The translations under genes and the position numbers were made by a program. From positions 1,116,001 through 1,180,000 of the forward strand of contig NZ_JAPEPC010000001.1 of assembly GCF_026340465.1 (NCBI RefSeq): DNA of 64,000 bases. The letters are read 5' to 3'. How positions within the stretch are numbered: the first letter of the stretch is position 1; each line of letters begins with the position of its first letter. This document shows positions 1,695 through 49,157 of the stretch, in pieces. The notes beneath the pieces are model-generated. The model saw only the letters and a list, made by a program, of their open reading frames with translations, had not been told where the DNA came from and made no database searches. The DNA is from Streptomyces sp. NBC_01306. GTDB taxonomy: Bacteria > Actinomycetota > Actinomycetes > Streptomycetales > Streptomycetaceae.

Positions 1695-1793
1695 CTCACC
1701 ACTCCACGCTATCCCTGTAATACGCAGACCAACCTCAGCCACGTCCGGCCACGGCACACCCGGCACCGTATGCCGGTACCGCACACCGACCCC

Positions 1794-1810
1794 ACCCCTA
1801 GCTGCCCCTA
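1794..1810 (-). promoter_or_regulatory. Direct-repeat operator candidate upstream of the loading PKS
   Basis: Read on the minus strand this is TAGGGGCAGCTAGGGGT: two TAGGGG hexamers repeating every 10 bp, about 100 bp upstream of the PKS start at 1694. The same arrangement and orientation recurs at 12438-12454 and 15613-15629, with a one-mismatch copy at 14052-14069 on the plus strand. A cluster-specific activator site is inferred; the binding protein is unknown. Confidence 0.6.
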
Positions 1811-1817
1811 AAAGGGA

Positions 1818-14020: not shown

Positions 14021-14051
14021 GTTTCCAGCCTCCTCAAGAGGTACCGAAAAG

Positions 14052-14069: not shown

Positions 14070-14112
14070 GCCTTCATCGCACACGCCGAATACAGTCACA
14101 TTGAAAATTATT

Positions 14113-14197: not shown

Positions 14198-14220
14198 CAA
14201 TTACAAGATGCGGAGTCACC

Positions 14221-14463: not shown

Positions 14464-14502
14464 CCCGGTTCCTCCTGCGGCCCCGGACAACAGCGGGTCC
14501 GG

Positions 14503-14554
14503 ACACAGAAATTGCCCTTCGCGATCTCCTCGATTACGGAGGGCACTTCTGTGT
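14503..14554. terminator. Bidirectional terminator between convergent ACP and acyltransferase genes
   Basis: ACACAGAAATTGCCCT (14503-14518) pairs with AGGGCACTTCTGTGT (14540-14554), with a single bulge, around a 21-base loop. A smaller stem, CCGGAC at 14483-14488 with GTCCGG at 14497-14502, precedes it. It sits between the two convergent stop codons. Confidence 0.6.
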
Positions 14555-14567
14555 GCGCGTTCCCTCG

Positions 14568-15521: not shown

Positions 15522-15612
15522 GGTCCTGTCCCCTACGCAATTCTCATATCGGCGGTGCGACGGCAGGTTCCGGCCGTCCCGGCCAGTTTGTTCCGGTGGG
15601 GCCGCCGCCAGT

Positions 15613-15629
15613 ACCCCTAGCGGCCCCTA
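15613..15629 (-). promoter_or_regulatory. Direct-repeat operator candidate upstream of the acyltransferase
   Basis: Minus-strand TAGGGGCCGCTAGGGGT, the same 10-bp-period TAGGGG pair as at 1794 and 12438. It lies in the 140-bp gap between the amidohydrolase stop and the acyltransferase start. Confidence 0.6.
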
Positions 15630-15661
15630 CCGGTTCCCGGACTCCCCTGCCGCTGCCCGGA

Positions 15662-19500: not shown

Positions 19501-22500
19501 CACCGGACCGTAGCCGTATCCCCGGCCCAGCAGCCGGGCGTACGCATCGGTCACATCCATCGGCTCCGCACCGGCGGGCGGCCACTGCGTCAGCTCGAAC
19601 GCCGCCGGACGCGCGCCCGGCGCGAGGAACCCCTCCACATGGCAGGTCCACGGGCCGCCGGATGCGTCCTCCGCTCGGGAGTAGACGCTCAGCGACCTGC
19701 GCCCTGACGCGTCGGGGCCGGCGACCACTGCCTGGATCTGCGTTCCCTGGTCCTCGGCGAGCACGAGGGGCGCCTGGAGGGTGAGTTCCTCCAGTACATC
19801 GCAGCCGACCTGATCGCCGGCGCGCAGTGCGAGCTCGACGAAGCCGGTGGCCGGGAAGAGGATGGTCTCACCGAGCCGGTGATCACCCAGCCAGGGCTGG
19901 AGGCCAGGCGAAAGCCGTCCGGTCAGTACGCGGCTGTCATCTCCCGGCAGTTCGACGACAGCACCGAGCAACGGGTGCTCGGGGTCGCCCAGGCCGAGCG
20001 ATGACGCGTCGCCGGAGCCGACGGGTGAGTGGGCCCAGTAGCGCTGGTGTTGGAAGGCGTACGTGGGGAGTTCGGTCAGCCGGGCACTGGATCCGGCGAA
20101 GAACGCCCGCCAGTCCACCGGAACGCCCCGCGCGAACAGCCCTCCCAGACCTGTCAGAAGCTCCGTGGCCTCATCACGACCACGACGCTGCAACCCAACA
20201 AACGCCACCCCATCAACATCATCGTCACCGACCACCTCCACACCCATCGGAACCAGAGCCGCATCCGGCCCCACCTCCACAAACGACCCCACACCACGGC
20301 CGACGAGTGTGGTCACCGCATCCGCGAAACGCACCGGCTCACGCACCTGCCGCACCCAATAACCAGGATCCGACCACTCACCCTCGACCCCACCACCGGT
20401 GACGGTCGAGACGGCCGACAACTGGGGTGCATTGAAGGTGAGTTTCTCTACTACAGCCGCGAAGTCGTCCAGCATCGGGTCCATCAACACCGAGTGGAAC
20501 GCGTGACTCACATCAAGCCGCTTCGTCTTACGACCGAGCGCAGCGATCCGCCCGGCCAGCTCCAGAACCTCCGCCTCAGCACCCGAAATCACCACCGAGG
20601 ACGGGCCATTGACGGCGGCGATACACACACCAGCCGACAACAGCCCGGCAACCTCAGCCTCCGGGGCCCCGACCGCGACCATCACACCACCCGAAGGCAG
20701 CGCCTGCATCAACCGCCCACGCGCGGCCACCAACACCACAGCATCCTCAAGCGACAACACCCTCGCCACATGAGCCGCAGCCACCTCACCAATCGAATGA
20801 CCAGCCACAAAGTCAGGCCGCACACCCCACGACTCAAGCAACCGGAACAACGCCACCTCAACCGCGAACAACCCCGCCTGCGCAAACACCGTCCGGTTCA
20901 GCGCACCAGCATCAGTGCCCCAGACCACCTCACGCACCGAAACGTCCGTACCGGCACCCGACAGCTCGGCATCCAGCAACCCCACCACCGCATCAAACGC
21001 CTCAGCAAACACCGGGAACGCCTCATACAGACCACGCCCCATCCCCACCCGCTGAGCACCTTGACCCGTAAACAAGAACCCAACACGCCCACGACGAACC
21101 GAATCCACCACACGACCCGCACCCGAAACCACCGAACGCAGACCCTCGACGAACCCCTCACGGTCCCCCGCCACCACCACAGCCCGATGTTTCAGTGCCG
21201 AGCGCGAGGTAGCCAGGGAGTAGGCCACATCCACCGGATGCAAGTCGGCGCCTTGCTCCACATGCGCCACCAGAGCCGCAGCCTGCGCACGCAACGCCTC
21301 AGCACTGCCCCCGGACACCACCCACGGCACCACACCACCAACAGGCACCTCAACCGGCACCGGCAGCGCCTCCGGTTCCTCCAGGATGACGTGCGCATTC
21401 GTCCCGCTCAGGCCGAACGACGACACACCAGCCCGCCGCGGACGACCCGCCTCAGCAGGCCACGCCCGCTCCTCCGTCAGCAACTCCACCGCACCCGCAG
21501 ACCAATCCACCTGCGACGACGGCTCATCCACATGCAACGTCCGCGGAAGAACACCCTCCCGCAACGCCATCACCATCTTGATCACACCCGCCACACCCGC
21601 AGCAGCCTGCGTATGACCAATATTCGACTTCACCGAGCCCAACCACAACGGCCGATCCTCCGCACGGTCCTGGCCGTATGTCGCCAGCAGCGCCTGCGCC
21701 TCGATCGGATCACCCAGCCGGGTCCCCGTACCGTGTGCCTCCACCACATCCACATCGGTCGGACGCAGGCCGGCGATGGACAGGGCGGCCTGGATGACGC
21801 GTTCCTGCGAGGGTCCGTGGGGGGCGGTCATGCCGTTGGACGCGCCGTCCTGGTTGACGGCTGATCCCTTCAGCAGCGCCAGCACCGGGTGACCGTTGCG
21901 CCGCGCATCCGACAGACGCTCCAGCACCAGGACGCCCACACCCTCCGAGAGCGCGGTGCCGTCGGCGCCGCTGGCGAAGGACTTGCACCGGCCGTCGGGG
22001 GCCAGGCCCCGCTGGCGGCTGAAGTCCACGAACATGTCGGGGGTGGACATGACGGTCACACCACCCGCCAACGCCAGCGAACTCTCACCCGACCGCAACG
22101 ACTGCGCCGCCAAATGCATCGCCACCAACGACGACGAACACGCCGTATCCACCGTCACCGCCGGACCCTCAAGACCCAACGTATAAGCCACCCGACCAGA
22201 AACCAGACTCCCCCCACTGGTCACCGCAGCCTCAGCACCCAAACCATAATCGTGATACATCAACCCCGCGAAAACACCCGTCGCACTCCCCTTCAACGAC
22301 AAAGGATCAACACCCGACCGCTCCAACGCCTCCCACGACGCCTCCAACAACAACCGCTGCTGCGGATCCATCGACAACGCCTCATTCGGACTCACCCCGA
22401 ACAAACCCGCATCAAACAAACCCGCACCCCCCAGAAAACCCCCCTCCCGCGCATACGACTTCCCCGCCCGACCCACCACCGGATCGAACAACCCACCAAC

Positions 22501-25500
22501 ATCCCAACCACGATCCCCCGGAAACACCCCCACAGCATCCACACCACCGGACACCACACCCCACAAACCCTCCGGCGACGACACCCCACCCGGATACCGA
22601 CACGCCATCCCCACCACCGCAACCGACTCCCCCGCCAACAACCCCTCCGCGGGGACTGTCCGGTTGGGCTGCTTCGGCTTCACACCGGCGAGTGCCGTGT
22701 CCAGGTAGGACGCGACAGCTTGTGCGGTGGGATGGTCGAAGATCAGGGTCGCGGGCAGCCTCAGTCCGGTGGCCGCGTTGAGGCGGTTGCGCAGTTCCAC
22801 CGCGGTGAGCGAGTCGAAGCCGAGGTCCTTGAACGCCTGGTCCGGGTCGAGCGCGTCCGGGTCCGCATGGCCGAGCACGCCCGCGACGTGGCTCCGTACC
22901 AGGTCCAGCAGTTTCCGTATCCGCTGCTCGGGGCCTGCACCGGCCAGCATCCGCTGGACGGCGGACGCGTCCGACGTCCCGTCCGCGGCCTTGCGCAGGC
23001 GACGGCCGGGCACCCTGGCCAGACCGCGCAGCAGCGCGGGGATCTCGTCCGCACGGGCACGCAGCGCCGCCTGATCGATCCGGAGGGGGGCCAGCACCGG
23101 GGCCCCGATCTCCAGGGAGGTGTCGAGCAGGGCGAGGCCCTCGTCCACCCGGAAACCGGGCAGACCCTGACGGGCCATCCGCTGAAGATCGACGTCCTGG
23201 AGGAGCCCGCTCATACCGGCCCCCAGCCACAGGCCCCATGCCAGTGACGTACCGGCCAGGCCGTGGTGGTGCCGGTGGACGGCGAGCGCGTCCAGGAACA
23301 CGTTGGCTGCCGCGTAGTTGGCCTGGCCCGAGGCCAGCACCATGCCGCCGGAGGAGGAGAACAGCAGGAACAGGCCGAGATCCATGTCGCGGGTCAGCTC
23401 GTGCAGATGCCAGGCGGCGTCCGCCTTGGCGCCGAGCACGGCGTCGAACCGTTCCGGTGTGAGCGTGCTGAGCAGCCCGTTGTCGGTGACACCGGCCGCG
23501 TGGACGACACCGGTGAGGGGGTGCCCGGCGGGGACGGTGCCCAGCAGCGCCGTCAGCGCCGCGCGGTCCGTGACGTCACAGGCGGCCACGGTGGTCTCGG
23601 CGCCCAAAGCGGCCAGTTCCGTGCGCAGTTCACCCACACCGGGGGTCTGCTCGCCCCGCCGGCTGGTCAGCAGCAGATGCCGTACGCCGTGGACCGTGGC
23701 CAGGTGGCGGGCGACTTCCGCGCCGATTCCGCCGGTTCCGCCGGTGATCAGGACGGTACCCGCCGGGTTCAGGACGGGAGGTGCGGCGTCCTCGGGGTGG
23801 TTGGCCGCCACGAGCCTGGGGGTCAGCACGGCGCCGTCGCGTACGGCAGTCTCCGTCTCCCCCGACCCGATGGCAGCGGCGAGGCCCTGGGGCCCGTCCG
23901 CGGTGCCGAGGTCGACCAGCAGGAAACGCCCCGGGTTCTCCGCCTGCGCCGCACGGACCATTCCCCACACGGGTGCCTGGCCCAGATCGATGTCCCCGTC
24001 CGGAGCACCGGTGCTGCCCTGGCCCGGCTCTGAGCCGGTGACAGCGACGGCGTGGCGGGTGACGACGGCCAGTCGTGAGTTCGCGAAGCGCTCGTCGGCC
24101 AGCCATTCCTGGAGGGCGGCCAGCGTGCGGTGCGCGATGTCCCGTACGCCGCCGAGGACGTCGTCGGCGACGGACGGCTCCACCCGGTGCACGACGGTGT
24201 CCGGTGCGGTCTCCCCCTCGTACCGTGCGTCCCATTCGGTGAACTCGGTGTTCTCGTCCGCCCCTTCGCCCGGGACCGGCTGCCAGCTGATGCGGTACGG
24301 AAGCTCGCGGCGGCCCTCCTCGGCAGCGCCCAGCTGCTCGGCGGTCACCGGCAGTGCGGCCAGCGAATCGACCGAGAGCACCGCACGCCCCGTCGCGTCG
24401 GCGACGGCGACGGACACCGAGTCGTGCTCTGCCTTGGTGATCCGCACCCGGAGTGCCTTGGCCCCGGCCGCGTGGAGGGTGACGCCGCTCCAGGCGAAGG
24501 GCAGGACGGTCGCGCCGTCCCTGCTGCCGCCGTCTTCGAGGAGGCCGGCGTGCATGGCCGCGTCGAAGAGCGCCGGGTGCAGCCCGAACCGTTCGGCGTC
24601 GGCATGGGCCTGCTCGGGCAGCACCGCCTCGGCGAAGACCTCGTCGCCCCGGGTCCAGAGCGCCTTCAGGCCCTGGAACACCGGCCCGTAGTAGTAGCCC
24701 TGCTCCAGCAGCCGGTCGTACGCACCGTCGAGGGAGACCTCAGTAGCGTCCACCGGCGGCCATTCGGTGAGTTCGAACGACGGGCGGGCCGCGCCGCACG
24801 CGAGGATCCCCTCGGCGTGCAGCGTCCACGGGTCGGTCGTCGCGTCCTGGAGACGCGAGTAGACCTGCACACCGCGCCGCAGCGCGTCGTCCGGCGCACC
24901 GACCACCACCTGCAGATGGATGCCGCCCTGCCGGGGCAGTACCAGCGGTGCACGCAGCGTCAGTTCCTCCAGCACGTCGCACTCGACCTGGTCGCCCGCC
25001 CGGATGGCCAGCTCCACAAGACCGGTGCCCGGCACCAGGACGGTGCCGAGCGCGTCGTGGTCACCGAGCCACGGGTGGGTCTGCAGGGAGAGCCTGCTGG
25101 TGAACACGTAGCCGTCGCTGTCCGCGAGGGCGACGGCCGCCCCGAGCAGGGGATGCTCCACGGGCAGCTGGCCGAGCGCGGTCACGTCCGACGCACCGGC
25201 GTCGGGAATGATCCAGTCGCGCCGCCGCTGGAAGGCGTAGGTGGGCAGCGCGACCCGTTCGCCCGCGGGGGCGCAGCGCGTCAGGTCCACGGAGGCACCA
25301 CGCACATGGGCCTCCGCGAGGGACAGGGTCATACGGGTGGAGCCCGCGTCCTCGCGGGCGAGTGAACCGACGGAGGCGGCGCGGGCGCCCGTGTCCTCGA
25401 AGATCTCCTCAAGTCCGGGCCTGAGCACCGGGTGGGGGCTGCACTCGACGAACAGGGTGTGCCCGTCGGCCAGCGCGGCCAGGGCCGCCTGGTGGAACTG

Positions 25501-27936
25501 CACGGGAGAGCGCAGATTGCGGTACCAGTACGCTGAATCCATGGCGTCCGTGGCAGGCAGGAGCGCCCCGGTGAGAGTGGAATAGACGGGCACCTCGGGG
25601 GCGCGCGGCGTCACTCCGGAGAGGGCATCGGCCAGTTCGCCGGCGATCTCCTCGACATGCGCCGAGTGAGCGGCGAAGTCCACACCCGGGATCGTCCAGC
25701 GCATGGCGCGGGCCTTGGCCAGGACGGTCTCGAACTCCCGCAGGGCCACCGCGTCGCCCGACACCACGACGGCGTTGGGACCGTTCTCCGCGGCCACCGA
25801 GATCCTGTCCCCGTACGGGCCGAGCCGCTCACGCACGAAGTCGACGGGCTTGACGATGGACATCATCGCGCCCTTGCCCGATATGGAGAGCAGAGCCTTG
25901 CTCCGCAGCGCCACGATGCGCGCGCCGTCCTCCAGCGAGAGAGCACCGGCCACGCACGCGGCCGCGATCTCGCCCTGGGAGTGCCCGATGACCGCGGAGG
26001 GCCGCACCCCGTGCGCACGCCACACCTCGGCCAGGGAGATCATGACGGCCCACAGCATCGGCTGCGCCACGTCGACGCGGTCCAGGGTCGGGGCGTCCGG
26101 CGCCTGGCGTGCCACCTCCAGCGGTGACCAGTCGATGTGCGGGGCCAGCGCACGGGCGCACTCGTGCATCCGTGCCGTGAACACCTCGGAGACATCCAGC
26201 AGCCCTGCGGCCATGCCCGGCCAGTGCGAGCCCTGCCCGGGGAAGACGAACACGGTCTTGCCGGGTTCCTCGGCCGTGCCCTGTACCAGGCCGGCGGACG
26301 GCAGGCCCTCACTCAGGGCGTGCAACCCGGTGAGCAGGGATTCCCGGTCACTGCCGACGACCACGGCGCGCTGGTCGAAGACCGTACGGCCGGTCAGCAG
26401 GGAATGGCCGACGTCGGCCGCCCGGAGACCGGGGTGCTCATCGAGGTGCGCGATCAGGCGGCCGGCCTGGGCGCGCAGCGCCGGCCCGGTCCGCGCGGAC
26501 AGGGCCCACGGAAGTACACCCGTGGCCTGCTGCGGGGGCTGCTCCGGCACCGGCGCCGAGCCGCGATCGGTGGCCTGCTCGGGGCTGAGTTCCGGGGCCT
26601 GCTCGACGATGACGTGCGCGTTGGTGCCGCTGAAGCCGAAGGAGGAGACTCCGGCCCGGCGCGGCCGCTCGTTCTCGGGCCAGGGCCGGGCCTCGGTCAG
26701 CAGCCGTACGTTGCCCGTGCTCCAGTCCACCTGGTCGGTGGGCTCGTCCACGTGCAGTGTCCTGGGCAGCAGGCCGTGCCGCATCGCCTGCACCATCTTG
26801 ATGACACCGGCGGCTCCGGCCGCGGTCTGGGTGTGGCCGATGTTGGACTTGAGCGAGCCGAGCCACAACGGCCGGTCAGCGGGCCGGTCCTGCCCGTACG
26901 TCGCCAGCAGCGCCTGCACCTCGATCGGGTCGCCGAGCGTGGTGCCCGTACCGTGCGCTTCGACCACGTCGACATCCGCCGGGGTCAGCCCGGAGTTCTC
27001 CAGCGCCTGCCGGATCACCCGGCGCTGGGAGGGGCCGTGCGGCGCAGAAAGGCCGTTGGACGCACCGTCCTGGTTGACCGCGGACCCCTTGATGACCGCG
27101 AGCACCTGGTGGCCGTTGCGCCGCGCGTCGGACAGACGCTCCAGGAGGAGCAGGCCCGAACCCTCGGCCCAGGCCGATCCGTCGGCCGCCGCGGCGAAGG
27201 ACTTGCAGCGGCCGTCCCTGGCGGATGCCTTCTGGCGGCTGAACTCGATGAACGTCTCAGGCGTGGACATCACGGCGACGCCGCCCGCCAGCGCGAGTGT
27301 GCACTCTCCGGAGCGCAGCGCCTGCGCGGCGAGGTGCAGCGACACGAGAGAGGAGGAGCACGCGGTGTCCAGGGTCACCGACGGGCCTTCGAAACCGAAG
27401 ACGTAGGAGATCCGCCCGGAGGCTATGGCGCCCGAATTATTGTTGTGCGTGTAGTCGTGGTACATCATCCCGGTGAAGACCCCGGTGGGGCTGCCCTTGA
27501 GGGGGCGGGGGTCGATACCCGCGTGCTCGAACGCCTCCCACGCCGTCTCCAGCAGCAGCCGCTGCTGGGGGTCCATGATCAGCGCCTCGTTCGGGCTGAT
27601 CCCGAAGAACTCGGCGTCGAAGTCGCCTGCCTCGTGCAGGAATCCGCCCTGGTCGACGTACGAGGTGTTCTCGCGGCGCGCCTCCGGGTCGTACAGCCGC
27701 TCCAGATCCCAGCCCCGGTTGTCCGGGAACGCGCTGATCGCGTCGGTCTCGTCGGCGACCAGCTGCCACAGGGCGTCCGCGGAATCCGCGCCCCCCGGGT
27801 ACCGGCAGGCCATGCCGACGATGGCGATCGGTTCACTGGAGGCCGCGGCCAGCTTGCGCTTCTGCGTGCGCAGCCGCTCGGCCTCCTTGACCGATGCCCG
27901 CAGCGCATCGACCAGCTTCTGCTCGGAGCCACCCAT
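16576..27936 (-). CDS. Type I PKS A, final two modules plus thioesterase
   Basis: A 3786-residue protein; ATG 27936 (MGGSEQKLVDALR) is preferred over an upstream start because GAGG is five bases before it and a coiled docking helix follows. Module 1: KS from residue 34 (Cys near 190), AT with GHSQGE near 650 and an atypical FAAH near 755, DH with HDALGTVLVP near 960 and DAAMH, KR with GGTGGIG near 1398 and the Asp of a B-type motif (VTDNG), ACP Ser near 1708. Module 2: KS from 1770, malonyl AT (GHSIGE near 2377, HAFH near 2479), DH with HRLGETILFP near 2684 (second Gly is Glu) and DAATH, B-type KR (LLDDG), ACP near 3437. TE: GYSAGG near 3629 and ANHFTV. No ER. It completes two double bonds and releases the chain, presumably as a macrolactam. 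Confidence 0.95.
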   Translation of the reverse strand: MGGSEQKLVDALRASVKEAERLRTQKRKLAAASSEPIAIVGMACRYPGGADSADALWQLVADETDAISAFPDNRGWDLERLYDPEARRENTSYVDQGGFLHEAGDFDAEFFGISPNEALIMDPQQRLLLETAWEAFEHAGIDPRPLKGSPTGVFTGMMYHDYTHNNNSGAIASGRISYVFGFEGPSVTLDTACSSSLVSLHLAAQALRSGECTLALAGGVAVMSTPETFIEFSRQKASARDGRCKSFAAAADGSAWAEGSGLLLLERLSDARRNGHQVLAVIKGSAVNQDGASNGLSAPHGPSQRRVIRQALENSGLTPADVDVVEAHGTGTTLGDPIEVQALLATYGQDRPADRPLWLGSLKSNIGHTQTAAGAAGVIKMVQAMRHGLLPRTLHVDEPTDQVDWSTGNVRLLTEARPWPENERPRRAGVSSFGFSGTNAHVIVEQAPELSPEQATDRGSAPVPEQPPQQATGVLPWALSARTGPALRAQAGRLIAHLDEHPGLRAADVGHSLLTGRTVFDQRAVVVGSDRESLLTGLHALSEGLPSAGLVQGTAEEPGKTVFVFPGQGSHWPGMAAGLLDVSEVFTARMHECARALAPHIDWSPLEVARQAPDAPTLDRVDVAQPMLWAVMISLAEVWRAHGVRPSAVIGHSQGEIAAACVAGALSLEDGARIVALRSKALLSISGKGAMMSIVKPVDFVRERLGPYGDRISVAAENGPNAVVVSGDAVALREFETVLAKARAMRWTIPGVDFAAHSAHVEEIAGELADALSGVTPRAPEVPVYSTLTGALLPATDAMDSAYWYRNLRSPVQFHQAALAALADGHTLFVECSPHPVLRPGLEEIFEDTGARAASVGSLAREDAGSTRMTLSLAEAHVRGASVDLTRCAPAGERVALPTYAFQRRRDWIIPDAGASDVTALGQLPVEHPLLGAAVALADSDGYVFTSRLSLQTHPWLGDHDALGTVLVPGTGLVELAIRAGDQVECDVLEELTLRAPLVLPRQGGIHLQVVVGAPDDALRRGVQVYSRLQDATTDPWTLHAEGILACGAARPSFELTEWPPVDATEVSLDGAYDRLLEQGYYYGPVFQGLKALWTRGDEVFAEAVLPEQAHADAERFGLHPALFDAAMHAGLLEDGGSRDGATVLPFAWSGVTLHAAGAKALRVRITKAEHDSVSVAVADATGRAVLSVDSLAALPVTAEQLGAAEEGRRELPYRISWQPVPGEGADENTEFTEWDARYEGETAPDTVVHRVEPSVADDVLGGVRDIAHRTLAALQEWLADERFANSRLAVVTRHAVAVTGSEPGQGSTGAPDGDIDLGQAPVWGMVRAAQAENPGRFLLVDLGTADGPQGLAAAIGSGETETAVRDGAVLTPRLVAANHPEDAAPPVLNPAGTVLITGGTGGIGAEVARHLATVHGVRHLLLTSRRGEQTPGVGELRTELAALGAETTVAACDVTDRAALTALLGTVPAGHPLTGVVHAAGVTDNGLLSTLTPERFDAVLGAKADAAWHLHELTRDMDLGLFLLFSSSGGMVLASGQANYAAANVFLDALAVHRHHHGLAGTSLAWGLWLGAGMSGLLQDVDLQRMARQGLPGFRVDEGLALLDTSLEIGAPVLAPLRIDQAALRARADEIPALLRGLARVPGRRLRKAADGTSDASAVQRMLAGAGPEQRIRKLLDLVRSHVAGVLGHADPDALDPDQAFKDLGFDSLTAVELRNRLNAATGLRLPATLIFDHPTAQAVASYLDTALAGVKPKQPNRTVPAEGLLAGESVAVVGMACRYPGGVSSPEGLWGVVSGGVDAVGVFPGDRGWDVGGLFDPVVGRAGKSYAREGGFLGGAGLFDAGLFGVSPNEALSMDPQQRLLLEASWEALERSGVDPLSLKGSATGVFAGLMYHDYGLGAEAAVTSGGSLVSGRVAYTLGLEGPAVTVDTACSSSLVAMHLAAQSLRSGESSLALAGGVTVMSTPDMFVDFSRQRGLAPDGRCKSFASGADGTALSEGVGVLVLERLSDARRNGHPVLALLKGSAVNQDGASNGMTAPHGPSQERVIQAALSIAGLRPTDVDVVEAHGTGTRLGDPIEAQALLATYGQDRAEDRPLWLGSVKSNIGHTQAAAGVAGVIKMVMALREGVLPRTLHVDEPSSQVDWSAGAVELLTEERAWPAEAGRPRRAGVSSFGLSGTNAHVILEEPEALPVPVEVPVGGVVPWVVSGGSAEALRAQAAALVAHVEQGADLHPVDVAYSLATSRSALKHRAVVVAGDREGFVEGLRSVVSGAGRVVDSVRRGRVGFLFTGQGAQRVGMGRGLYEAFPVFAEAFDAVVGLLDAELSGAGTDVSVREVVWGTDAGALNRTVFAQAGLFAVEVALFRLLESWGVRPDFVAGHSIGEVAAAHVARVLSLEDAVVLVAARGRLMQALPSGGVMVAVGAPEAEVAGLLSAGVCIAAVNGPSSVVISGAEAEVLELAGRIAALGRKTKRLDVSHAFHSVLMDPMLDDFAAVVEKLTFNAPQLSAVSTVTGGGVEGEWSDPGYWVRQVREPVRFADAVTTLVGRGVGSFVEVGPDAALVPMGVEVVGDDDVDGVAFVGLQRRGRDEATELLTGLGGLFARGVPVDWRAFFAGSSARLTELPTYAFQHQRYWAHSPVGSGDASSLGLGDPEHPLLGAVVELPGDDSRVLTGRLSPGLQPWLGDHRLGETILFPATGFVELALRAGDQVGCDVLEELTLQAPLVLAEDQGTQIQAVVAGPDASGRRSLSVYSRAEDASGGPWTCHVEGFLAPGARPAAFELTQWPPAGAEPMDVTDAYARLLGRGYGYGPVFQGLTAAWTAGEEIFAEITLPEEAHDDAGRLGLHPALLDAATHAALIHDGAPGGDSAVLPFAWMDVSLYATGASGLRVRLTPTEQGIALAVADQTGRPVLAAGSVLSRPVSLDQLGAAGAGGHHKSLYQVDWAPLPAPALDGPPLTWADWADWAGRAEHGAAVQDSPLPDLFLLRSRPGHDAAAVHDRTRQALEAVQAYLAEDRLAGTRLLVLTRGAVAMSGEDVTDLAGATVWGLVRAAQQENPGRILLADTDEDLGTDDGPGTVADVEVPRIAAAAAAESQAVLRGGTAHVARLSRVPAGPVRPGGFGEAGTVLVTGASGTLGRLIARHLVAAHGVRHLLLTSRRGAAADGIPQLMDELTAMGAEVRAVAADAGDRAQLAAVLDGIPAAHPLTGVVHAAGLLDDGVIATLTPGRVDATLHSKVDAVLHLHELTKELDLTAFVLFSSMAGVFGNAGQAGYSAANAFLDAFATHRRAAGLPGTSLAWGAWSRDVGMASTLTDHDRERMSGRGIDELTTDQGLALFDAAIRAEAPVLLPVGFNPAVLAAAGEELPPLLRGLVPTVRRRPAGAGAPVQASVREQLAGLDEQEQEALLLQLVRDGSAKVLGHDSADAVDPERDFLESGFDSLTSLELRNGLNRATGLRLSPTAVFDNKTPAELARFLHGLLAAQAPSGASEAEAGDVPGEVSGAGSLSTLFRAAAEAGRMDKGFDLLRTVADFRPTFDAAAQAGPLAAPVRLAEGPGAPRLICISTPMATGGVAQHARLAAAFRGERQVSAVPLPGFRTGEPLPASTSAAVDVVAGAVLDAAEGEPFVLIGYSAGGTLAYATAAYLENELGITPAGVVLLDSFRMDSATGGVSLDALAHGLLAKESAFGGFDDARLSGMAGWGKVLSEFAPAPVAAPVLLVQCTESFAPSGESEGQDADTWRAQPWFPEHDVAPIRANHFTVIEEQATDTAALISDWLNSTDRGRTS
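20041..21660. repeat. AT/KS-linker block, copy in PKS A module 2
   Basis: This stretch encodes the end of the KS, the linker and the malonyl AT. It is near-identical in DNA to 30699-32325, 40799-42235 and 46457-48090. Long runs show A/T-rich third positions on the coding strand, unlike the DH/KR DNA to either side. Confidence 0.8.
22050..22650. repeat. KS N-terminal block, copy 1 (PKS A module 2)
   Basis: It matches 48476-49076 in PKS D. The 470 bp from 22181 to 22650 line up with 48607-49076 with no difference seen by eye; only scattered mismatches occur in the remaining 130 bp. Confidence 0.85.
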
Positions 27937-27943
27937 CACAGCC

Positions 27944-38713: not shown

Positions 38714-38757
38714 GTCAGTCCCACGAATCCTTTGTCCGGCGGCAACGGTCCCTGCAC

Positions 38758-41700
38758 TCAGGCGAGGCCCAGTTCCTTGTCGATGAAGTCGAAGACGTCC
38801 TCTGCCGACGCCGAATCGAGCTGACCGCTCACATCACTGCCGTTCCCCTCGTCACCGGCCAGCCGCCCCAGCAGGGCCTGCAACCGACCGGTGATCCCCA
38901 TGCGCTCCACTTCCTCGGGGGCGAGCGCTGCCACCGTCGTCTCGAACCGGTCGAGCGCCGCGAGTACGGGCAGCTCCCCGGCGGCTTCCCCCTCGCACAA
39001 CTGCGTGCGCAGATAGGCCGCGAGAGCCCCGGGGCTCGCGAAGTCGAAGACCATCGTGGCCGGGAGCTTCCTGCCCACGGCCTTCACCAGCCTGGTGCGC
39101 AGATCGACCGCGGCGACGGAGTCGAAGCCCAGGTCGTCGAAGGACCGGGCCGCGTCGACCTCGCCCGGTGTGTCGTAGCCGAGCAGGCCGGCCACGTGCG
39201 TACGGACCAGGTTGAGCAGCACCCGGTCCTGCTCGGGCTGCGACAGCCCGGCCAGTTCCCCGGCCAGCCGGGCCCCCGGGGTGTCCGATGCTGCGACGTC
39301 GTCGTCCTCCAGGGCCGCCACGGCCTCGGGCAGCGAGTCAAGCAGAGGACGAGGACGGGCGAGCGTGTACGTGGGGGCGAAGCGCGACCAGTCGAAGTCG
39401 GCGACCACCACATGGCTCCCGCCGCTCGCGAGCACCTCACGCAGTGCCGCGACAGCCCGGCGAGGGCTCATGGGAGGTGCGCCGATGCGCCGGCTCATCG
39501 CGCTGACCTCGGCGTCGACCATCCCGGCCTCCCAGGAACCCCAGGCGATCGAGGTCGCGGCGAGCCCTCGTGCCCGGCGCTGGTGGGCCAGGCCGTCCAG
39601 GTAGGCGTTGGCACTGCCGTAAGCGGCCTGTCCGGCGCTGCCCCAGACAGCAGCGCCGGAGGAGAACAGCACGAACGCGTCGAGCGGTCGGTCACCGAGG
39701 ATCTCGTCCAGATGGGCCGCGCCGAGCACCTTCGCGCGGGCCGTCGAGGCCAGTTCTTCGACCGTGGTCTCCGCCGCGGTGGAGGGCCGCTGCATGGCTC
39801 CGGCGGCGTGCACGACCGTCGTGAGCGGCAGCTCCGGCCCGATGGCCTCGATGAGCTCGGTGAGCGCCTCACGGTCGGCCACGTCACAGGCCGCGATGGT
39901 CACCCGGGATCCCAGTGCCACGAGCTCGGCCTCCAGCTCGGCGGCCCCTTCGGCGGCGCTGCCCCGGCGACTGGTGAGCAGCAGATGAGGTGCGCCGTCG
40001 GCCGCCATCATGCGGGCCACGTGGGCGCCGAGGCCGCCGGTTCCGCCGGTGATCAGTACGGTTCCGGGCCCCTCTGTGGCGGCCTGGGCGGGCCGCTTGG
40101 CGGACGGGGCGCCGGTGAGCGGAGCCCGCACGAGGCGACGGCCGTACGCACCGTCGGAGCGGAGCGCGACCTGGTCCTCACCACCCGGTCCCCCGGCCAG
40201 TACCTGGGAGAGCCGCTGGGCGACCGACTCGTCCACACTGACCGGAAGGTCCAGGATGCCTCCCCAGGTGTCGGGCTGGTCGAGGGACAGTCCGATACCC
40301 AGGCCCCACAGGGCGGTCTGCCCCGGGCTGGCGGCCTCGGCGGGATCGCGTACAGCCACGGCCCCGGTGGTGACACACCAGAGCGGCGCCGTGCAGCCCG
40401 CGTCGCCGAGCGCCTGGACGAGCAGCAGGGTGGCGGCGGTTCCGTGAGCCAGCTCGGGATACTGATCGTGAGCACGGTCCTCCAGAGCCAGCAGTGACAG
40501 CACCCCGGCCGGTGTCTCGCCGGCGGCGGCAGACCTCAACTGCTCGGCGAGAGCCCGCCGGTCCGCGCCGTCGCTCTCGATCAGAGCTACGGCGGCACCG
40601 CCGCGGACGAGGCCGTCTGTAACCGCGGACACGGACTGGTCCTTGCTGCGGCCTTCCGGTACGACGACGAGCCAGAGTCCGTCGACGGAGGGACCTTCGG
40701 CGGGCGGAAGCCGGAGCCACTCCACCTCGTATCCGAGCGCGTCCACGTTGCTCTGCTGGGGGCGGGAGGGGGTCTCAGCAGCGAAGTCGTACCAGTAGTG
40801 CTGGCGTTGGAAGGCGTACGTGGGGAGATCCGTCAGCCGGGCAGTAGATCCGGCGAAGAATGCCCGCCAGTCCACCGGAACGCCCCGCGCGAACAGCGCG
40901 CCCAAACCTGTCAGAAGCTCCGTGGCCTCATCACGACCACGACGCTGCAACCCAACAAACGCCACCCCGTCATCGTCGCCGACCACCTCCACACCCATCG
41001 GAACCAGAGCCGCATCCGGCCCCACCTCCACAAACGACCCCACACCACGGCCGACGAGTGTGGTCACAGCGTCCGCGAAACGGACCGGCTCACGCACCTG
41101 CCGCACCCAATAGCCAGGATCCGACCACTCACCCTCAACCACACCACCGGTGACGGTCGAAACAGCCGACAACTGCGGAGCATTGAAGGTCAGCTTCTCC
41201 ACCACGGCTGCGAACTCATCCAGCATCGGGTCCATCAACACCGAGTGGAACGCGTGACTCACATCAAGCCGCTTCGTCTTACGACCCTCCGACGCCAACC
41301 GCCCGGCCAGCTCCATAACCTCGGCCTCAGCACCCGAAATCACCACAGAGGACGGACCATTGACCGCGGCAATACACACACCGGCCGACAACAGCCCGGC
41401 AACCTCAGCCTCCGGAGCCCCGACCGCGACCATCACACCACCCGAAGGCAGCGCCTGCATCAACCGCCCACGCGCGGCCACCAACACCGCCGCGTCCTCA
41501 AGCGACAACACCCCCGCCACATGAGCCGCAGCCACCTCACCAATCGAATGACCAGCCACAAAGTCAGGCCGCACACCCCACGACTCAAACAACCGGAACA
41601 ACGCCACCTCAACCGCGAACAACCCCGCCTGAGCAAACACCGTCCGATTCAGCACACCAGCATCAGTGCCCCAGACCACCTCACGCACCGACACGTCCGT

Positions 41701-43473
41701 ACCGGCACCCGACAGCTCGGCATCCAGCAACCCCACCACCACATCAAACACCTCAGCAAACACCGGGAACGCCTCATACAGACCACGCCCCATCCCCACC
41801 CGCTGAGCACCCTGACCCGTGAACAAGAACCCAACACGCCCACGACGAACCGAATCCACCACACGACCCGCACCCGAAACCACCGAACGCAGACCACGCA
41901 CCAACTCCACGCGATCCGAACCCACCACCACAGCCCGATGCTCCAAAGCCGCCCGCGACACCGCCAGCGAGAACCCCACATCCACCGGACGAAGGTCAAC
42001 CCCCGACTCCACATGCGCCACCAAAGCAGCAGCCTGCGCACGCAACGCCTCAGCACTACGCCCCGACACCACCCACGGCACCACACCACCAACAGAAGCC
42101 TCAACCGGCACCGACAGCGCCTCCGGCTCCTCCAGAATCACATGCGCATTCGTCCCGCTCAGACCGAACGACGACACACCAGCCCGCCGCAGACGACCCA
42201 CCTCAACCGGCCACGCCCGCTCCTCCGTCAGCAGCGAGATGTTGCCTTCCGACCAGTTCACCTGGGGTGTGGGCTCGTCGATGTTGAGGGTGCGCGGGAT
42301 CAGTTCATGGCGCATGGCCTGCACCATCTTGATCACGCCGCCGACACCCGCAGCGGCTTGCGCGTGGCCGATGTTGGACTTGAGCGAGCCGAGCCACAAC
42401 GGTCGGTCAGCGGGACGGTCCTGGCCGTACGTCGCCAGCAACGCCTGCGCCTCGATCGGGTCGCCCAGCGTCGTGCCTGTGCCGTGCGCCTCCACCACAT
42501 CCACATCAGCAGCCGACAACTGCGCGTCCGCCAACGCCTGCCGGATCAACCGCTGCTGTGCCAGACCGTTCGGCGCCGTCAGACCATTCGACGCACCATC
42601 CTGATTGACCGCACTGCCCCGCAACACCGCAAGCACCTGATGCCCATGACGCCGCGCATCCGACAGACGCTCCAGCACCAACATGCCGATACCCTCGCCC
42701 CAGCCGGTCCCGTCGGCAGCCGCGGCGAACGACTTGCACCGGCCGTCCGGCGCGAGGCCCCGGTCCTGGCTGAAGCCGACGAAGGCCCGGGGCGTCGCCA
42801 TGACCGTCACACCTCCGGCCAGTGCCAGCGAACTCTCACCCGACCGCAGCGACTGCGCCGCCAGATGCATCGCGACCAAGGACGACGAACACGCCGTATC
42901 CACCGTCACCGCCGGACCCTCAAGACCCAGGCTGTAGGCGACGCGCCCCGAGGCCACACTGGCCAGGCCGCCGATGCCGCCGTCTCCGACGTAGTCGTGG
43001 TAGGCGATCCCGGCGAAGACACCGGTCGGGCTGCCCTTCAGCGACAGCGGATCGATCCCGGCCCGCTCCAGCGCCTCCCACGACGTCTCCAGCAACAGCC
43101 GCTGCTGCGGATCCATCGCCTTGGCGTCCCGCGGGCTGATCTTGAAGAAGTCGGCGTCGAACTCGTCGGCCTCGTGCAGGAATCCGCCGTCGCGGGAGTA
43201 CGTCTTGCCGGGGGTCGCCGGCTCCGGGTCGTACAGCCCCTCGACGTCCCAGCCACGGTTCTCGGGAAGGGTGGTGATGGCGTCCCGGCCCTCCGCCACC
43301 AGCTGCCAGAGGGCGTCGGGCGAATCCACCCCGCCCGGGTACCGGCAGCTCATCGCGACAATGGCGATCGGCTCGTGCTGGCGTGCATCCGCCTCGCGCA
43401 GCCGCCGCTTGGTCTGCTGCAGTTCAGCAGTGGCACGCTTGAGGTACTCGCGGAGCTTCTCGTTGTCGCTCAT
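38758..43473 (-). CDS. Type I PKS C, one module (KS-AT-KR-ACP)
   Basis: A 1571-residue single module. ATG 43473 ([13 protein letters not shown]) is preferred to GTG 43479 because AAGG is suitably spaced from it. Order: docking coil, KS from about 34 (Cys near 196, EAHGTGT), malonyl AT (GHSIGE near 643, HAFH near 741), KR, ACP (Ser near 1449, GFDSVAA). There is no DH. The KR has GGTGGLG near 1144 and an active Tyr near 1284, lacks the LDD motif ([10 protein letters not shown]) and has Trp in SGAAVWG, which predicts an A-type (L-) hydroxyl. It therefore leaves a secondary alcohol. The C-terminus ([13 protein letters not shown]) closely resembles that of PKS D. Confidence 0.95.
40799..42235. repeat. 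AT/KS-linker block, copy in PKS C
   Basis: Shares long near-identical DNA with the blocks in PKS A module 2, B module 2 and D. Homology breaks near 42235, where the KS becomes PKS C-specific, then resumes with PKS B around 42480-42680. Confidence 0.8.
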
Positions 43474-43604
43474 CTCCACCTTGACCGATCTCGTGTTGCA
43501 GGGAAGCGGAATGTTGCGGGGGATGTCACCGGCGACGCGGCGGCCGTGGCCGGCCGTCGAGGCTGTCGAAGTCGCCGCAGCCTCTGTAGTGATGGGCGGC
43601 CCGG

Positions 43605-46600
43605 CTACGAAATGCCGAGTTCCTGATCGAGGACGTCGAACAGCTCGTCGTCCGTAGCCGCGTCGGCGATCGCCTTGATCTCAGGCTCCCCCGCACCTGC
43701 GCCATGGGTGTCGCGCCACTTGCGCAGCAGTGCTTCCAGTCGTGAGGTGACCCTTGTACGGCTGTCTGTCCGGCCGTCGTCCGTGTGGCCGTCGTCGAGC
43801 GCGGTCTCGCCGAGCAGGGACTCCAGCCGGTCGATCTCCCCGATCAGCCGACGCGCGATGTCCTCATCGGCCGGGGCGATCAGGGTCGCGATGTAGGCCG
43901 CAGCGGCAAGGGAGTTGGGGTAGTCGAAGACCAGGGTGGCGGTGAGCTGAAGCCCGGTCGCCTCGCTGAGCCGCCTGCGCAGTTCGACGCCCGCGAGCGA
44001 GTCGAACCCCAGCTCCTGGAAAGCCCGGCCGGGCTCGACGTCGTCCACCGAGGGGTGTCCGAGGACCGCTGCGGCGTGCGTCCGTACGACGTCCAGCAGC
44101 TCGTCCTCACGTTCTTGAGGCGGCAGTCCGGCGAGCCGTCGCCGCAGGTCGCCCGTACGCCGGCCCGGTGCCTGCTGCCGGCGTCGCCCGTTCGCGGGCA
44201 CCACACCGTGCAGAACCGGCGGCACATCGTCGCCCATCGAGCGCAGTACGGGGCGGTCGAGGCAGAGGGCGAACAGCGCCGACTCACCCGACTCTCCTGA
44301 CTCACCCGACTCGACCGACTCGACGGCAAGGTCGAGGAAGGCCAGGTCGAAGAGGGCCAGCCCTTCTTCCTCGGTCAGCGCGGGGAGCCCCAGCGCTCCC
44401 ATGCGCCGGTGGTACTCGTCTGCCGACCCGTCGTCCGCGTCCGCGGCCCACGGACCATAGGCCAGCGCGACCGCCGGGAGCCCCGCGGCCCGCCGGGTCG
44501 CGGCGAGTGCCTCGGCGAAGGTGGCCGCGGCAGCGGTGCCGGGCCGGCCGGCTCCGTGCAGGAGTCCGCCCGATGTCCCGATCAGGACGAAGGCGTCCAG
44601 GGCGAGGTCTCGCGTCGCCTCGTGCAGGTTCCAGGCCGCGGTGGCCCGTGTACCCAGGACCGCGGTCAGCTGTTCCGGGCTCAGCGTGCCGATCAGCGCA
44701 TTGTGCTCAGTGGAATCGGCGTGCACCACGGCGGTCAGCGGGTAGGCCTCGTCGATACGTGACAGCAGCACGGCAACTGCTCCGGGGTCGGCCATGTCAC
44801 CCGGTTCGACGGTGACGTGGGCACCGAGTTCCGCCAGCGCGGACACCAGAGCTGCGGCTTCGGCGCCGGAACTGCCGGTCAGGACCAGCCGCCGTGCTCC
44901 GTGAGCGGAGACCAGGTGGCGCGCCAGGACGGCGCCCACGCCCCGGGTGCCACCGGTGATGAGGACGGTGCCCTCCGCCGGGGCCACCGGGTGGTCTTCG
45001 GGGGTGGGAGCGGGGGCCGGAGCCAGCCCGGGACGGAGCAGTACCCCGTCGCGTACGGCGGTCTCGGGCTCGCGAGCGCCGAATGCCGCTCCAAGGGCCC
45101 ACGCACACTCCTCCGTACCGGCCGCCGGATCCAGGTCAATGAGCAGGAACGTGTCGGGGTGCTCGGCCTGGGCCGCGCGTATCAGACCCCATACCCCCGC
45201 CTGGGCAGGATCGGCCGCGCCCCCGTGTACAGGAACGGCGCCCTGCGTCACCACGGCGAGGCGGGAAGTGTCCAGCCCGTCCTCAGCCAGCCATTCCTGA
45301 ACGGTCCGGAGAGTACGTCGTGCCAGGTCTCCTGCGGCATGGGCAACATCACCATCGGTACGAGGCAGCGCCAGGACCGCCGTACGAGGACCGGAGCCGT
45401 CCACGGCCAGCTCGGCGGAGAGTTCGGCCGGCGTCGCATAGACAGGTACGGGACCGAGCGGCGCGTACTCCGCACTGCCCAGCAGCACGACGTCCTGCGC
45501 ATCAGGGTCGCCGGGCCGAGTCCGTTCCCTCGGGGCCCAGTTGAGCCGGTACAGCGCGCCACGGCCTGTCGGCGCCACGGCACGGGCTTGGATCCGTCGC
45601 GACCGGAGGGAGCCGACGGTGAGGACGGGAGCGCCCGCCGGATCGGTCAGGCTGACACCCACCCGGCCTGCCTCGCCGGGCACGATACGGACACGCAGCT
45701 GGGACGCTCCCGCCGTGTGCAGGGTGACGTCGCTCCATTCGGCGGGCACGATGGGGGTTCCATCGTGCTCTGCACCGGCGTGATGCGTCTGCAACGCCGC
45801 GTCCAGCAGCGCCGGATGGACTCCGAACTCCGCGCCCTCGCCGGCCTCTCCGGGCAGAGCGACCTCGGCGAGCAGGTGTTCCCCGTCCTTCCACGCGGCC
45901 GTGATCCCCTGGAACGCCGGCCCATAGTCGTGGCCGCGCGCGAACAGTTGCTCGTACACCTCGTCGACATCGAGCGGGACAGCTCCGACCGGCGGCCAGA
46001 CACCGGGCGGGTCATAGGCTTCCGGCGCCCCCTCACCAACCGCCAGCACGGCCTTGGCATGCAGGGTCCACGGCGTATCGATGCCTTCTGCACGGGAGTG
46101 CACGCTCAGCGGCCGCTCCCCTGTCTCGTCAGAGGCCCCTACCCAGACGCGCAGGGCGGTGGGCGGCCCGTCATGCGCCAGGAGGAGGGGTTCCTCAACG
46201 GTGAGGCTCCGTACGACGTCGCACCCGATCTGCTGACCGGCGGCCAGAGCAAGCTCGATGAGCCCGGTCGCGGGGAACTCCTTGACGCCGTTCAGGCTGT
46301 GATCTGCGAGCCATCGCTGGTCGCCGAGGCCGAGGCGTCCGGCCAGAACCAGGCCGTCGCCCTCGGGCAGCTCGACAACAGCACGCAGGAGGGGATGTTC
46401 GGCCGCCGTAAGTCCGACGCTCGCCACATTGTCGAGCGGCTGGGCGTTCAGCCAGTAGTGCTGGTGCTGGAAGGCGTACGTGGGGAGTTCGGTCAGCCGG
46501 GCAGTGGATCCGGCGAAGAATGCCCGCCAGTCCACCGGAACGCCCCGCGCGAACAGCGCGCCCAGACCTGTCAGAAGCTCCGTGGCCTCATCACGACCAC

Positions 46601-49157
46601 GACGCTGCAACCCAACAAACGCCACCCCATCAGCGGCCCCATCATCGCCGACCACCTCCACACCCATCGGAACCAGAGCCGCATCCGGCCCCACCTCCAC
46701 AAACGACCCCACACCACGAGCCGTGAGAGCCGTCACCGCATCAGCGAAACGCACCGGCTCACGAACCTGCCGCACCCAATAACCAGGATCCGACCACTCA
46801 CCCTCAACCACACCACCAGTCACCGTCGAAACCGCCGACAACTGAGGTGCATTGAAGGTCAGCTTCTCCACCACGGCTGCGAACTCATCCAGCATCGGAT
46901 CCATCAACACCGAGTGGAACGCGTGACTCACATCAAGCCGCTTCGTCTTACAACCAAGCGCAGCGATCCGCCCGGCCAGCTCCAGAACCCCGGCCTCAGC
47001 ACCCGAAATCACCACGGAAGAGGGGCCGTTGACGGCGGCGATACACACACCGCCCGACAACAGCGCGGCAACCTCACTCTCCGGGGCCCCGACCGCGACC
47101 ATCGCACCACCCGAAGGCAGCGCCTGCATCAACCGCCCACGCGCGGCCACCAACACCGCCGCGTCCTCAAGCGACAACACCCCCGCCACATGGGCAGCGG
47201 CCACCTCACCGATCGAATGGCCGGTCACGACGTCAGGCCGTACACCCCACGACTCAAGGAGCCGGAACAAGGCCACCTCAACCGCGAACAAACCGGCCTG
47301 CGCAAACACGGTCCGGTTCAGCGCACCAGCATCAGTGCCCCAGACCACCTCACGCACCGACACACCCAACCCGGCATCCGACAGCTGGACATCCAGCAAC
47401 CCCACCACCGCATCAAACGCCTCAGCAAAGACCGGGAACGCCTCATACAGACCACGCCCCATCCCCACCCGCTGAGCACCCTGACCCGTAAAGAGAAACG
47501 CCGTACCCTCACCGGCACGCGCCACATCCCGGACCACACCCGCCCCGGACTCACCCGCCGCAAGCGCCGACAACCCAGCGACAAACCCCTCACGGTCCCC
47601 CGCCACCACCACAGCCCGATGCTCCAGAGCCGCCCGCGATGTCGCCAGCGAGAACGCCGTATCCACGACACTCACACCCGACTCCACATGCGCCACCAGA
47701 GCAGCAGCCTGCGCACGCAACGCCTCAGCACTACGCCCCGACACCACCCACGGCACCACACCACCAACAGGCACCTCAACCGGCACCGGCAGCGCCTCCG
47801 GCTCCTCCAGGATGACGTGCGCATTCGTCCCGCTCAGACCGAACGACGACACACCAGCCCGCCGCGGACGACCCACCTCAGCCGGCCACGCCCGCTCCTC
47901 CCTCAACAACTCCACCGCACCCGCAGACCAATCCACCTGCGACGACGGCTCATCCACATGCAACGTCCGCGGAAGAACACCCTCCCGCAACGCCATCACC
48001 ATCTTGATCACACCCGCCACACCCGCAGCAGCCTGCGTATGACCAATATTCGACTTCACCGAGCCCAGCCACAACGGCCGATCCTCCGACCGCCCCTGGC
48101 CATACGTCGCCAACAACGCCTGCGCCTCGATCGGATCACCCAGCGTCGTCCCCGTACCGTGGCCCTCCACCACATCCACATCAGCAGCCGACAACTGCGC
48201 ATCCGCCAACGCCTGCTGGATGACGCGTCGCTGCGACGGTCCGTGGGGAGCCGTCAGACGGCTCGACGCGCCGTCCTGGTTGACGGCCGATCCCTTCAGC
48301 AGCGCCAACACCGGATGACCATTGCGCCGCGCGTCCGACAGACGCTCCAGCACCAGCACACCCACGCCCTCGCCCCAGCCGGTCCCGTCGGCGGCGCCGG
48401 CATAGGGCTTGCACCGGCCGTCCGGGGCCAGGCCGCGCTGCTGGCTGAAGTAGATGAAGACATCGGGGGTGGACATGACGGTCACGCCACCCGCCAACGC
48501 CAGCGAACTCTCACCCGACCGCAACGACTGCGCCGCCAAATGCATCGCCACCAACGACGACGAACACGCCGTATCCACCGTCACCGCCGGACCCTCAAGC
48601 CCCAACGTATAAGCCACCCGACCAGAAACCAGACTCCCCCCACTGGTCACCGCAGCCTCAGCACCCAAACCATAATCGTGATACATCAACCCCGCGAAAA
48701 CACCCGTCGCACTCCCCTTCAACGACAAAGGATCAACACCCGACCGCTCCAACGCCTCCCACGACGCCTCCAACAACAACCGCTGCTGCGGATCCATCGA
48801 CAACGCCTCATTCGGACTCACCCCGAACAAACCCGCATCAAACAAACCCGCACCCCCCAGAAAACCCCCCTCCCGCGCATACGACTTCCCCGCCCGACCC
48901 ACCACCGGATCGAACAACCCACCAACATCCCAACCACGATCCCCCGGAAACACCCCCACAGCATCCACACCACCGGACACCACACCCCACAAACCCTCCG
49001 GCGACGACACCCCACCCGGATACCGACACGCCATCCCCACCACCGCAACCGACTCCCCCGCCAACAACCCCTCCGCACGGGAGAGACGTTCGCGCGTCGT
49101 CTGCAAATCGGCGGTGGCACGCCTCAGGTATTCCAGAAGTCTTTCCTCGTTGCCCAC
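43605..49157 (-). CDS. Type I PKS D, one module with a degenerate KR (KS-AT-DH-KR0-ACP)
   Basis: An 1850-residue single module. The GTG 49157 start has GAGGGGGG upstream. KS from about 36 has Cys near 199, but its first His motif reads EGHGTGT. The AT is malonyl-type (GHSIGE near 646, HAFH near 747). The DH keeps [10 protein letters not shown] near 952 and DAALQ. The KR keeps the nucleotide loop GGTRGVG near 1399, but the catalytic residues are replaced: the Ser position is Thr, the Tyr position near 1541 is Thr ([10 protein letters not shown]), the Asn position is Ala, the Lys position is Arg, and LDD is EHN. The beta-ketone is therefore predicted to survive. ACP Ser is near 1716. [16 protein letters not shown] linker lies between KR and ACP. 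The C-terminal docking tail ([13 protein letters not shown]) suits PKS C. Confidence 0.94.
46457..48090. repeat. AT/KS-linker block, copy in PKS D
   Basis: Near-identical to the blocks in PKS A module 2, B module 2 and C. The segment around 47495-47690 is replaced by a different AT N-terminal stretch ([12 protein letters not shown]), so this copy is itself recombinant. Confidence 0.75.
48476..49076. repeat. KS N-terminal block, copy 2 (PKS D)
   Basis: Counterpart of 22050-22650 in PKS A module 2. The 470 bp 48607-49076 appear identical to 22181-22650, 26 kb away. Confidence 0.85.

Follow-up and report, generated by a model that had tools for sequence, protein, structure and literature searches.

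The window analysed here, a stretch of 64,000 nucleotides from Streptomyces sp. NBC_01306 (C2:1116001-1180000 of a host genome of 8.38 Mb in four contigs), contains four modular polyketide synthase (PKS) genes, P1 to P4, and the 5' part of a further PKS frame, Q2 (Table 1). Counting the upstream PKS genes Q1 and Q2, the cluster comprises ten modules with a ketosynthase (KS) and an acyltransferase (AT) domain, accompanied in the window by dehydratase (DH), ketoreductase (KR), acyl carrier protein (ACP) and thioesterase (TE) domains. Modules are named by gene and number (P1m2 is module 2 of P1). Six of them contain blocks of extreme strand skew. These blocks are GRINS, stretches of PKS modules that appear to have been copied by gene conversion and are strongly skewed in composition, and the cluster is an ordinary member of this class.

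Table 1. PKS genes and skewed blocks of the cluster, in window coordinates
Feature	Position	Strand	Basis and remarks
P1, PKS gene	16576..27990	-	open reading frame and Pfam; module 1 KS-AT-DH-KR-ACP, module 2 KS-AT-DH-KR-ACP-TE; predicted TTG start
P2, PKS gene	27944..38713	-	open reading frame and domain search; two modules KS-AT-DH-KR-ACP
P3, PKS gene	38758..43479	-	open reading frame and domain search; single module KS-AT-KR-ACP, without DH
P4, PKS gene	43605..49157	-	open reading frame and domain search; single module KS-AT-DH-KR-ACP
Q2, upstream PKS open frame, 5' part	1..1817	-	whole frame C2:1101393-1117817, mostly beyond the window; modules 2 and 3 skewed
Skewed block, KS N-terminal half, P1 module 2	22057..22650	-	two-state model
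Skewed block, KS end / linker / AT, P1 module 2	20146..21768	-	unskewed gap 20398-20505
Skewed block, KS / linker / AT, P2 module 2	30758..32845	-	gaps 32606-32722, 31091-31162
Skewed block, KS / linker / AT, P3	40903..42930	-	gaps 42685-42825, 42238-42486
Skewed block, KS / linker / AT, P4	46563..49079	-	gap 48219-48488

Composition was followed on the coding strand in 300-nt sliding windows, and block limits were taken from a two-state model. Steps in composition, each taking up no more than one to a few 300-nt windows, were found in P1 module 2, P2 module 2, P3 and P4. Within the blocks, which have weaker gaps, most values lie at +0.3 to +0.6 for GC skew and at +0.3 to +0.7 for TA skew; third codon positions are mostly 0.5-0.7 G and 0.2-0.35 T, with C at 0.03-0.25 and A nearly nil. 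DH, KR, ACP and the remaining KS-AT pairs have about 0.4 G and 0.5 C at third positions and little A or T, although T reaches 0.23 in one part of P4 outside the block. A preliminary description of this DNA had seen two codon styles in these genes, T-ending in the blocks and the usual one elsewhere. Both styles and the third-position step between them are confirmed, but the block codons end in G or T and not in T alone. The best block of each gene gave a log-likelihood ratio of 303, 321, 241 and 372 (P1 to P4), compared with maxima of 25, 20, 36 and 81 in 500 synonymous shuffles per gene. The skew of the blocks is far beyond chance.

The 3' border lies at the end of the AT in all four modules (alignment columns 876, 890, 876 and 876). 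The 5' border is not common: it lies at column -7/-8, just before the KS, in P1m2 and P4m1, and at column 159, in the middle of the KS, in P2m2 and P3m1. Of the sharp borders described as the same in four modules, the sharpness and the shared 3' end therefore stand and the shared 5' end does not. The extent first given, 20041-48090, was also too narrow, since the blocks run from 20146-22650 to 46563-49079 and modules 2 and 3 of Q2, upstream of the window, are likewise skewed (Q2m3 more weakly). Across the 112 kb examined, no opposite-sign block of the size searched for was found. An unskewed gap was noticed within the AT (alignment columns 753-790); it has the same start (753) in four of the six skewed modules (P1m2, P2m2, Q2m2 and Q2m3).

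According to excerpts of the literature, GRINS are parts of cis-AT PKS genes, about 1 kb long or longer, that are highly identical to another part of the same PKS, are strongly skewed in both GC and TA, and have been connected with gene conversion and the diversification of ATs (PMC10394414, PMC9899208, PMC11907408). The blocks of this cluster lie within assembly-line PKS coding sequence (Pfam KS, AT, (DH), KR, ACP). Mean skews of the seven window blocks are 0.22-0.45 (GC) and 0.28-0.51 (TA), where a mean above 0.15 marks a GRINS, and six of the seven exceed 0.25 on both. Their AT, KS N-terminal and linker copies share more than 80% identity with another region of the same PKS over at least about 500 bp. 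The ATs of P1m2, P2m2, P3m1, P4m1 and Q2m2 are 91.4-95.5% identical in nucleotide sequence among themselves, and that of Q2m3 is 82-85% identical to these five. The six have 61-68% nucleotide identity to the unskewed ATs of Q1m1 and Q2m1, which from their motifs we take to be malonyl-type. In the KS N-terminal domain P1m2 and P4m1 are 95.9% identical, and these two share 68-73% with the other four skewed copies; the linkers of P2m2 and P3m1 are 92.0% identical. Among 906 polymorphic sites, up to 246 in a row are identical, compared with at most 42 in 500 permutations, and all 15 pairs lie above their own permutation maximum. Moreover, each copy repeatedly switches its nearest partner along the module. 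The runs test and the partner switching, statistical as they are, support the earlier suggestion that the blocks probably spread by gene conversion between modules.

To place the ATs in a wider context, a FastTree phylogeny of 283 ATs was used. The six skewed cluster ATs are nearest to one another and do not group with the other four cluster ATs, which are closest to ATs elsewhere. The nearest ATs outside the cluster, those of L093 (Streptomyces cirratus) and L008, are unskewed. This indicates the spread of a single AT type across the cluster, and gives no sign that the odd codons came with it. The preliminary description had proposed that a KS/AT block of foreign codon usage was imported and then spread. 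The mutual grouping of the skewed ATs agrees with such an import; the odd composition that it would predict in the closest relatives elsewhere was not found for this cluster. At least 39 gains or losses of skew were counted over the whole tree (without shuffle control). Of the 66 skewed ATs, 28 have a skewed AT as their nearest neighbour from another locus, compared with 44 of the 217 unskewed ones, a contrast that also speaks for import. Skew is therefore not independent of ancestry, and shared ancestry or an altered amino-acid make-up could be the cause of this contrast.

In a first survey, 104 loci with an AT were collected by their top-ranking protein similarity to a G/T-type query, an ordinary GRINS protein. 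Both skews exceeded +0.15 in 66 of 285 AT and 20 of 281 KS domains, and no AT or KS had both below -0.15. All 86 skewed domains thus carried G/T on the coding strand, as would follow from a process tied to that strand, such as transcription, R-loops or codon choice for translation. However, opposite-sign blocks were unlikely to turn up among loci that were top matches to a protein of G/T type. In later sets PKS stretches were picked by gene orientation relative to dnaA (106 stretches, 24 genomes). The same-genus set holds 80 stretches from 18 genomes, with chromosomes assumed to replicate outward from dnaA, and the other-genera set 26 stretches from six genomes of five genera and three families, assumed to be circular with the terminus opposite dnaA. 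PKS frames were cut into 500-nt tiles, which were called strongly skewed when both skews lay beyond 0.25; for AT and KS domains the cut-off was 0.15.

On the coding strand of the pooled sets, leading-strand genes have 194 G/T-rich tiles versus 1 of the opposite sign, and lagging-strand genes 86 A/C-rich tiles versus 2. In the same-genus set, 142 tiles are positive and 1 is negative out of 1620 in leading-strand genes, compared with 2 positive and 45 negative out of 825 in lagging-strand genes. AT domains of this set behave alike: in leading-strand genes 68 of 167 are positive and none is negative, and in lagging-strand genes 2 of 89 are positive and 15 negative. The other genera gave 52 positive and no negative tiles of 544 on the leading side, and no positive and 41 negative tiles of 400 on the lagging side; one lagging region of this set (G302, 6 negative tiles) is near the presumed terminus. 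Grouping the skewed ATs of the same-genus set by cluster and strand gave 18 leading units, all of them positive, and five lagging units, four of them negative. Counted blind to genes and in the leading-strand sense, 271 of 3667 tiles are G/T-rich and 6 A/C-rich at threshold 0.25, and 38 of 40 clusters, in 20 genomes, follow the rule. For the actinomycete genomes under study, these results show a skew that is fixed to the replication strand: G/T enrichment falls on the leading strand whichever way the gene runs. The cluster of the window lies on the minus strand at 1.10-1.17 Mb and dnaA at C2:3.516 Mb; the cluster is therefore co-directional with the fork and fits the rule.

Two sets of observations weaken the rule. 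KS domains respond poorly (8 of 157 positive in leading-strand genes, none of 84 of either sign in lagging-strand genes), and the rule rests on ATs and tiles. Wrong-sign tiles, 6 at 0.25 and confined to four clusters in genomes G065, G094, G096 and G101, become more frequent at lower thresholds (20 versus 355 at 0.20, 58 versus 505 at 0.15). In one region, G065:C1 7.35-7.48 Mb (L153-L155, L170, L192), PKS genes run both ways and some lagging-strand tiles have the sign of leading genes, as if part of the cluster had recently been inverted.

The opposite sign of lagging-strand genes in stretches chosen by orientation refutes a process tied to the coding strand, to which we attach next to no probability. 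It bears on import as well. With G/T-ending codons in leading genes and C/A-ending codons in lagging genes, the codon style flips with replication direction in other genomes, and no single donor style fits both; an origin of the block from a source with other codon usage is thus very improbable. Several lagging-strand stretches (in L113-L132, L153-L168 and L193-L203) carry opposite-sign GRINS with C/A-ending codons.

The skew reaches the protein. Among 350 ATs, of which 80 are leading-strand skewed, 26 lagging-strand skewed and 169 flat (75 intermediate or other ATs were excluded), the skewed proteins are mirror images, Val/Gly-rich in leading genes (Val 0.150, Gly 0.114, Thr 0.035, His 0.019) and Thr/His-rich in lagging genes (Val 0.056, Gly 0.068, Thr 0.135, His 0.066), with flat ATs at Val 0.104, Gly 0.092, Thr 0.051 and His 0.026. 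The contrast persists inside malonyl- and methylmalonyl-type ATs, types which we presume from motifs. Lagging-strand skewed ATs have GAA at 0.62 and CAA at 0.52, up from 0.16 and 0.07, respectively. Leading-sense skew increases with identity to the nearest paralogue (rho 0.66 for 166 leading and 0.62 for 80 lagging ATs; same-genus sets).

At 4-fold sites, log-odds shifts relative to flat ATs were calculated in the leading sense for the leading and lagging sets. They amount to 2.12/2.51 for C>T, 1.10/1.84 for C>G, 0.76/1.06 for A>G and 1.78/1.73 for A>T. On average, both sets favour each of the four changes that turn A/C into G/T, transversions as well as transitions; the A>G shift is slightly negative in one codon family per set, and T over G and A over C are raised as well. 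Sorting of standing variation alone was judged, by a hand estimate, not to be enough: with ten modules it predicts near-complete G/T at 4-fold sites, whereas 0.76 is seen in leading skewed ATs.

These shifts bear on whether mutation alone might suffice. A longer single-stranded lagging template, or asymmetric polymerase errors, would enrich the leading strand in T and G by way of C>T and A>G transitions, and duplication would spread the result. The sign of the skew follows replication in both genome sets and in the gene-blind count, and C>T is the largest shift. In the available part of a study of a Streptomyces ambofaciens nucS mutant, replication transitions are biased in the same way: the leading strand of the right replichore had 1150 A>G versus 412 T>C and 715 C>T versus 274 G>A, and the left was reversed (PMC11109965). 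However, the transversions C>G and A>T are strongly shifted too, and a pure transition bias is therefore insufficient. In addition, tiles of the same stretches in which either skew is below 0.15 have medians of -0.005 (GC) and 0.014 (TA) in the leading-strand sense, which calls for a process local to the copied blocks. We regard mutation alone as improbable, though not negligibly so.

Another source of asymmetry could be RecA loading. A GT-rich lagging template, once exposed, would hold RecA best, and repeats of this kind would recombine most and be kept. GTG and GTGGTG lie above synonymous shuffles in both orientation sets in the leading-strand sense, and RecA monomers dissociate slowest from TGG repeats, according to excerpts of one study (PMC3763553). 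The same excerpts state that nucleation is no faster on TG-rich or Chi sequence (PMC3763553). The excess of the motifs is small (about 7-15% over 30 shuffles) and comes from related copies, and Chi (GCTGGTGG) is not enriched in either orientation set (17 versus 21 +- 4 and 8 versus 8 +- 2 in synonymous shuffles). Moreover, the gapped molecule is normally the recipient, so that preferred sequences should be overwritten and not spread. A drive or selection through RecA loading is doubtful to much the same degree as mutation alone.

The best explanation, to which we give a little more than an even chance, is that GRINS owe their replication-fixed skew to conversion at the fork that is filtered by the actinobacterial nuclease NucS. 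Such conversion would act on the lagging-strand template, which has the leading-strand sense. NucS attacks only G-T, G-G and T-T mismatches and leaves A-C, C-C and A-A alone. A change of the template from A/C to G/T would pass through A-C, C-C or A-A and be accepted, and one from G/T to A/C would pass through G-T, G-G or T-T and be rejected. As NucS would spare the former mismatches and attack the latter, only leading-sense changes toward G/T would go through, and repeated conversion would ratchet a repeat toward G/T on the leading strand. A bias of leading-strand replication errors (C>T, A>G) and the preference of RecA for GT-rich single-stranded DNA would act in the same direction. We infer the filtering step itself. 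All 25 genomes searched (the 18 of the same genus, the six of other genera and that of the window) gave a match to the NucS C-terminal domain, and none of the 25 to the MutS N-terminal domain; NucS_C was not found in the control genomes of Bacillus subtilis and Synechococcus elongatus.

Several points speak against filtering by NucS. GTG and GTGGTG are above and GGGG below the codon-usage expectation, which a filter acting site by site does not predict. Singletons among the five near-identical copies show no growth of skew: in linker and AT they are balanced or lean the other way (T>C 24 versus C>T 21, G>C 30 versus C>G 13), and in the AT alone they number 14 versus 13 and 7 versus 7, respectively. 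Since conversion among the copies makes the polarity of singletons unreliable, no claim is drawn from them. NucS repair has been reported to be independent of homologous recombination (PMC11551767), and wild-type lines, in the available part of the S. ambofaciens study, had too few mutations for strand bias to be measured (PMC11109965). GRINS are reported, if less often, in cyanobacteria and firmicutes, as far as excerpts of one paper go (PMC10394414); with NucS_C not found in the controls, NucS cannot be the sole route. Finally, C>T has a larger shift than C>G, and there is a rise of T over G and of A over C, which indicates that mutation bias contributes. A still wider claim, that GRINS are the footprint of a conversion ratchet driven by mismatch repair in organisms with NucS and not MutS, in which fork direction sets how any sufficiently often converting repeat and its protein are rewritten, is offered tentatively and is rather less likely to be true than false.

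The discoverers of GRINS reportedly left their origin open. Replication direction, an opposite-sign form on the lagging strand and NucS, all three raised here, are absent from the excerpted GRINS literature (PMC10394414, PMC9899208, PMC11907408). The replication rule is likewise unstated in the titles and abstract openings among the matches listed by a search that left most subscription journals outside, and may already be known. Other systems resemble the blocks in part. Shared skew patterns are mentioned for duplicated nonribosomal peptide synthetase genes in excerpts of one paper (PMC9205934). The vls cassettes of Lyme Borrelia likewise form a conversion array with strong coding-strand GC skew (average 0.52), which their authors, in the part available, link to conversion; there the skew is in G, AT skew is near zero and G runs are clustered (PMC11499132), whereas in the PKS blocks T is raised too and GGGG lies below shuffles. 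Clustering of G runs (G-quadruplex-like), the explanation offered for vls, was dropped for the PKS blocks, GGGG being below shuffles in both orientation sets. Whole-chromosome skew has the same sign, with an excess of G and, less so, of T on the leading strand, but spans the chromosome, as excerpts describe it (PMC3174206), whereas the PKS skew is local and intense and other tiles of the same stretches are almost flat.

The replication-strand rule directs attention to events at the fork and counts against three other causes, namely codon choice, transcription and a foreign origin. For specialists the interest lies in this rule and in the opposite-sign GRINS, and the NucS filter is a testable guess. 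If it is right, a repair enzyme would be tied to the evolution of antibiotic assembly lines, and swapped modules would drift in composition according to orientation. Orientation or nucS background would then be worth choosing in PKS engineering, and similar blocks would be expected in other often-converting repeats of NucS organisms. If the ratchet holds, a cluster that is inverted would from then on evolve in the opposite direction.

No orthologous cluster was found among the matches listed from 149 other sampled genomes of the genus, the best listed outside match having 69% amino-acid identity, nor in 77 named loci (from which records very near the own genome were possibly excluded). Next to the TE-bearing P1, at window positions 12452-16579 on the minus strand, lie genes for an AMP-binding enzyme, a VinK-type acyltransferase and an alpha/beta hydrolase. 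These look like a putative beta-amino-acid starter set as in macrolactams, and by analogy with such clusters the product may be a macrolactam. Two short patches have GRINS-like third positions outside the blocks. One, of 18 codons, is in P4 past the AT (45339-45392, minus strand) and may be due to chance; the other, of 42 codons, is at the extreme start of the Q2 frame (1692-1817, minus strand), where chance or non-coding sequence is possible. Glycosyl hydrolases of families 92 and 59, probably not part of the PKS cluster, are encoded at 54282-59585 on the minus strand.

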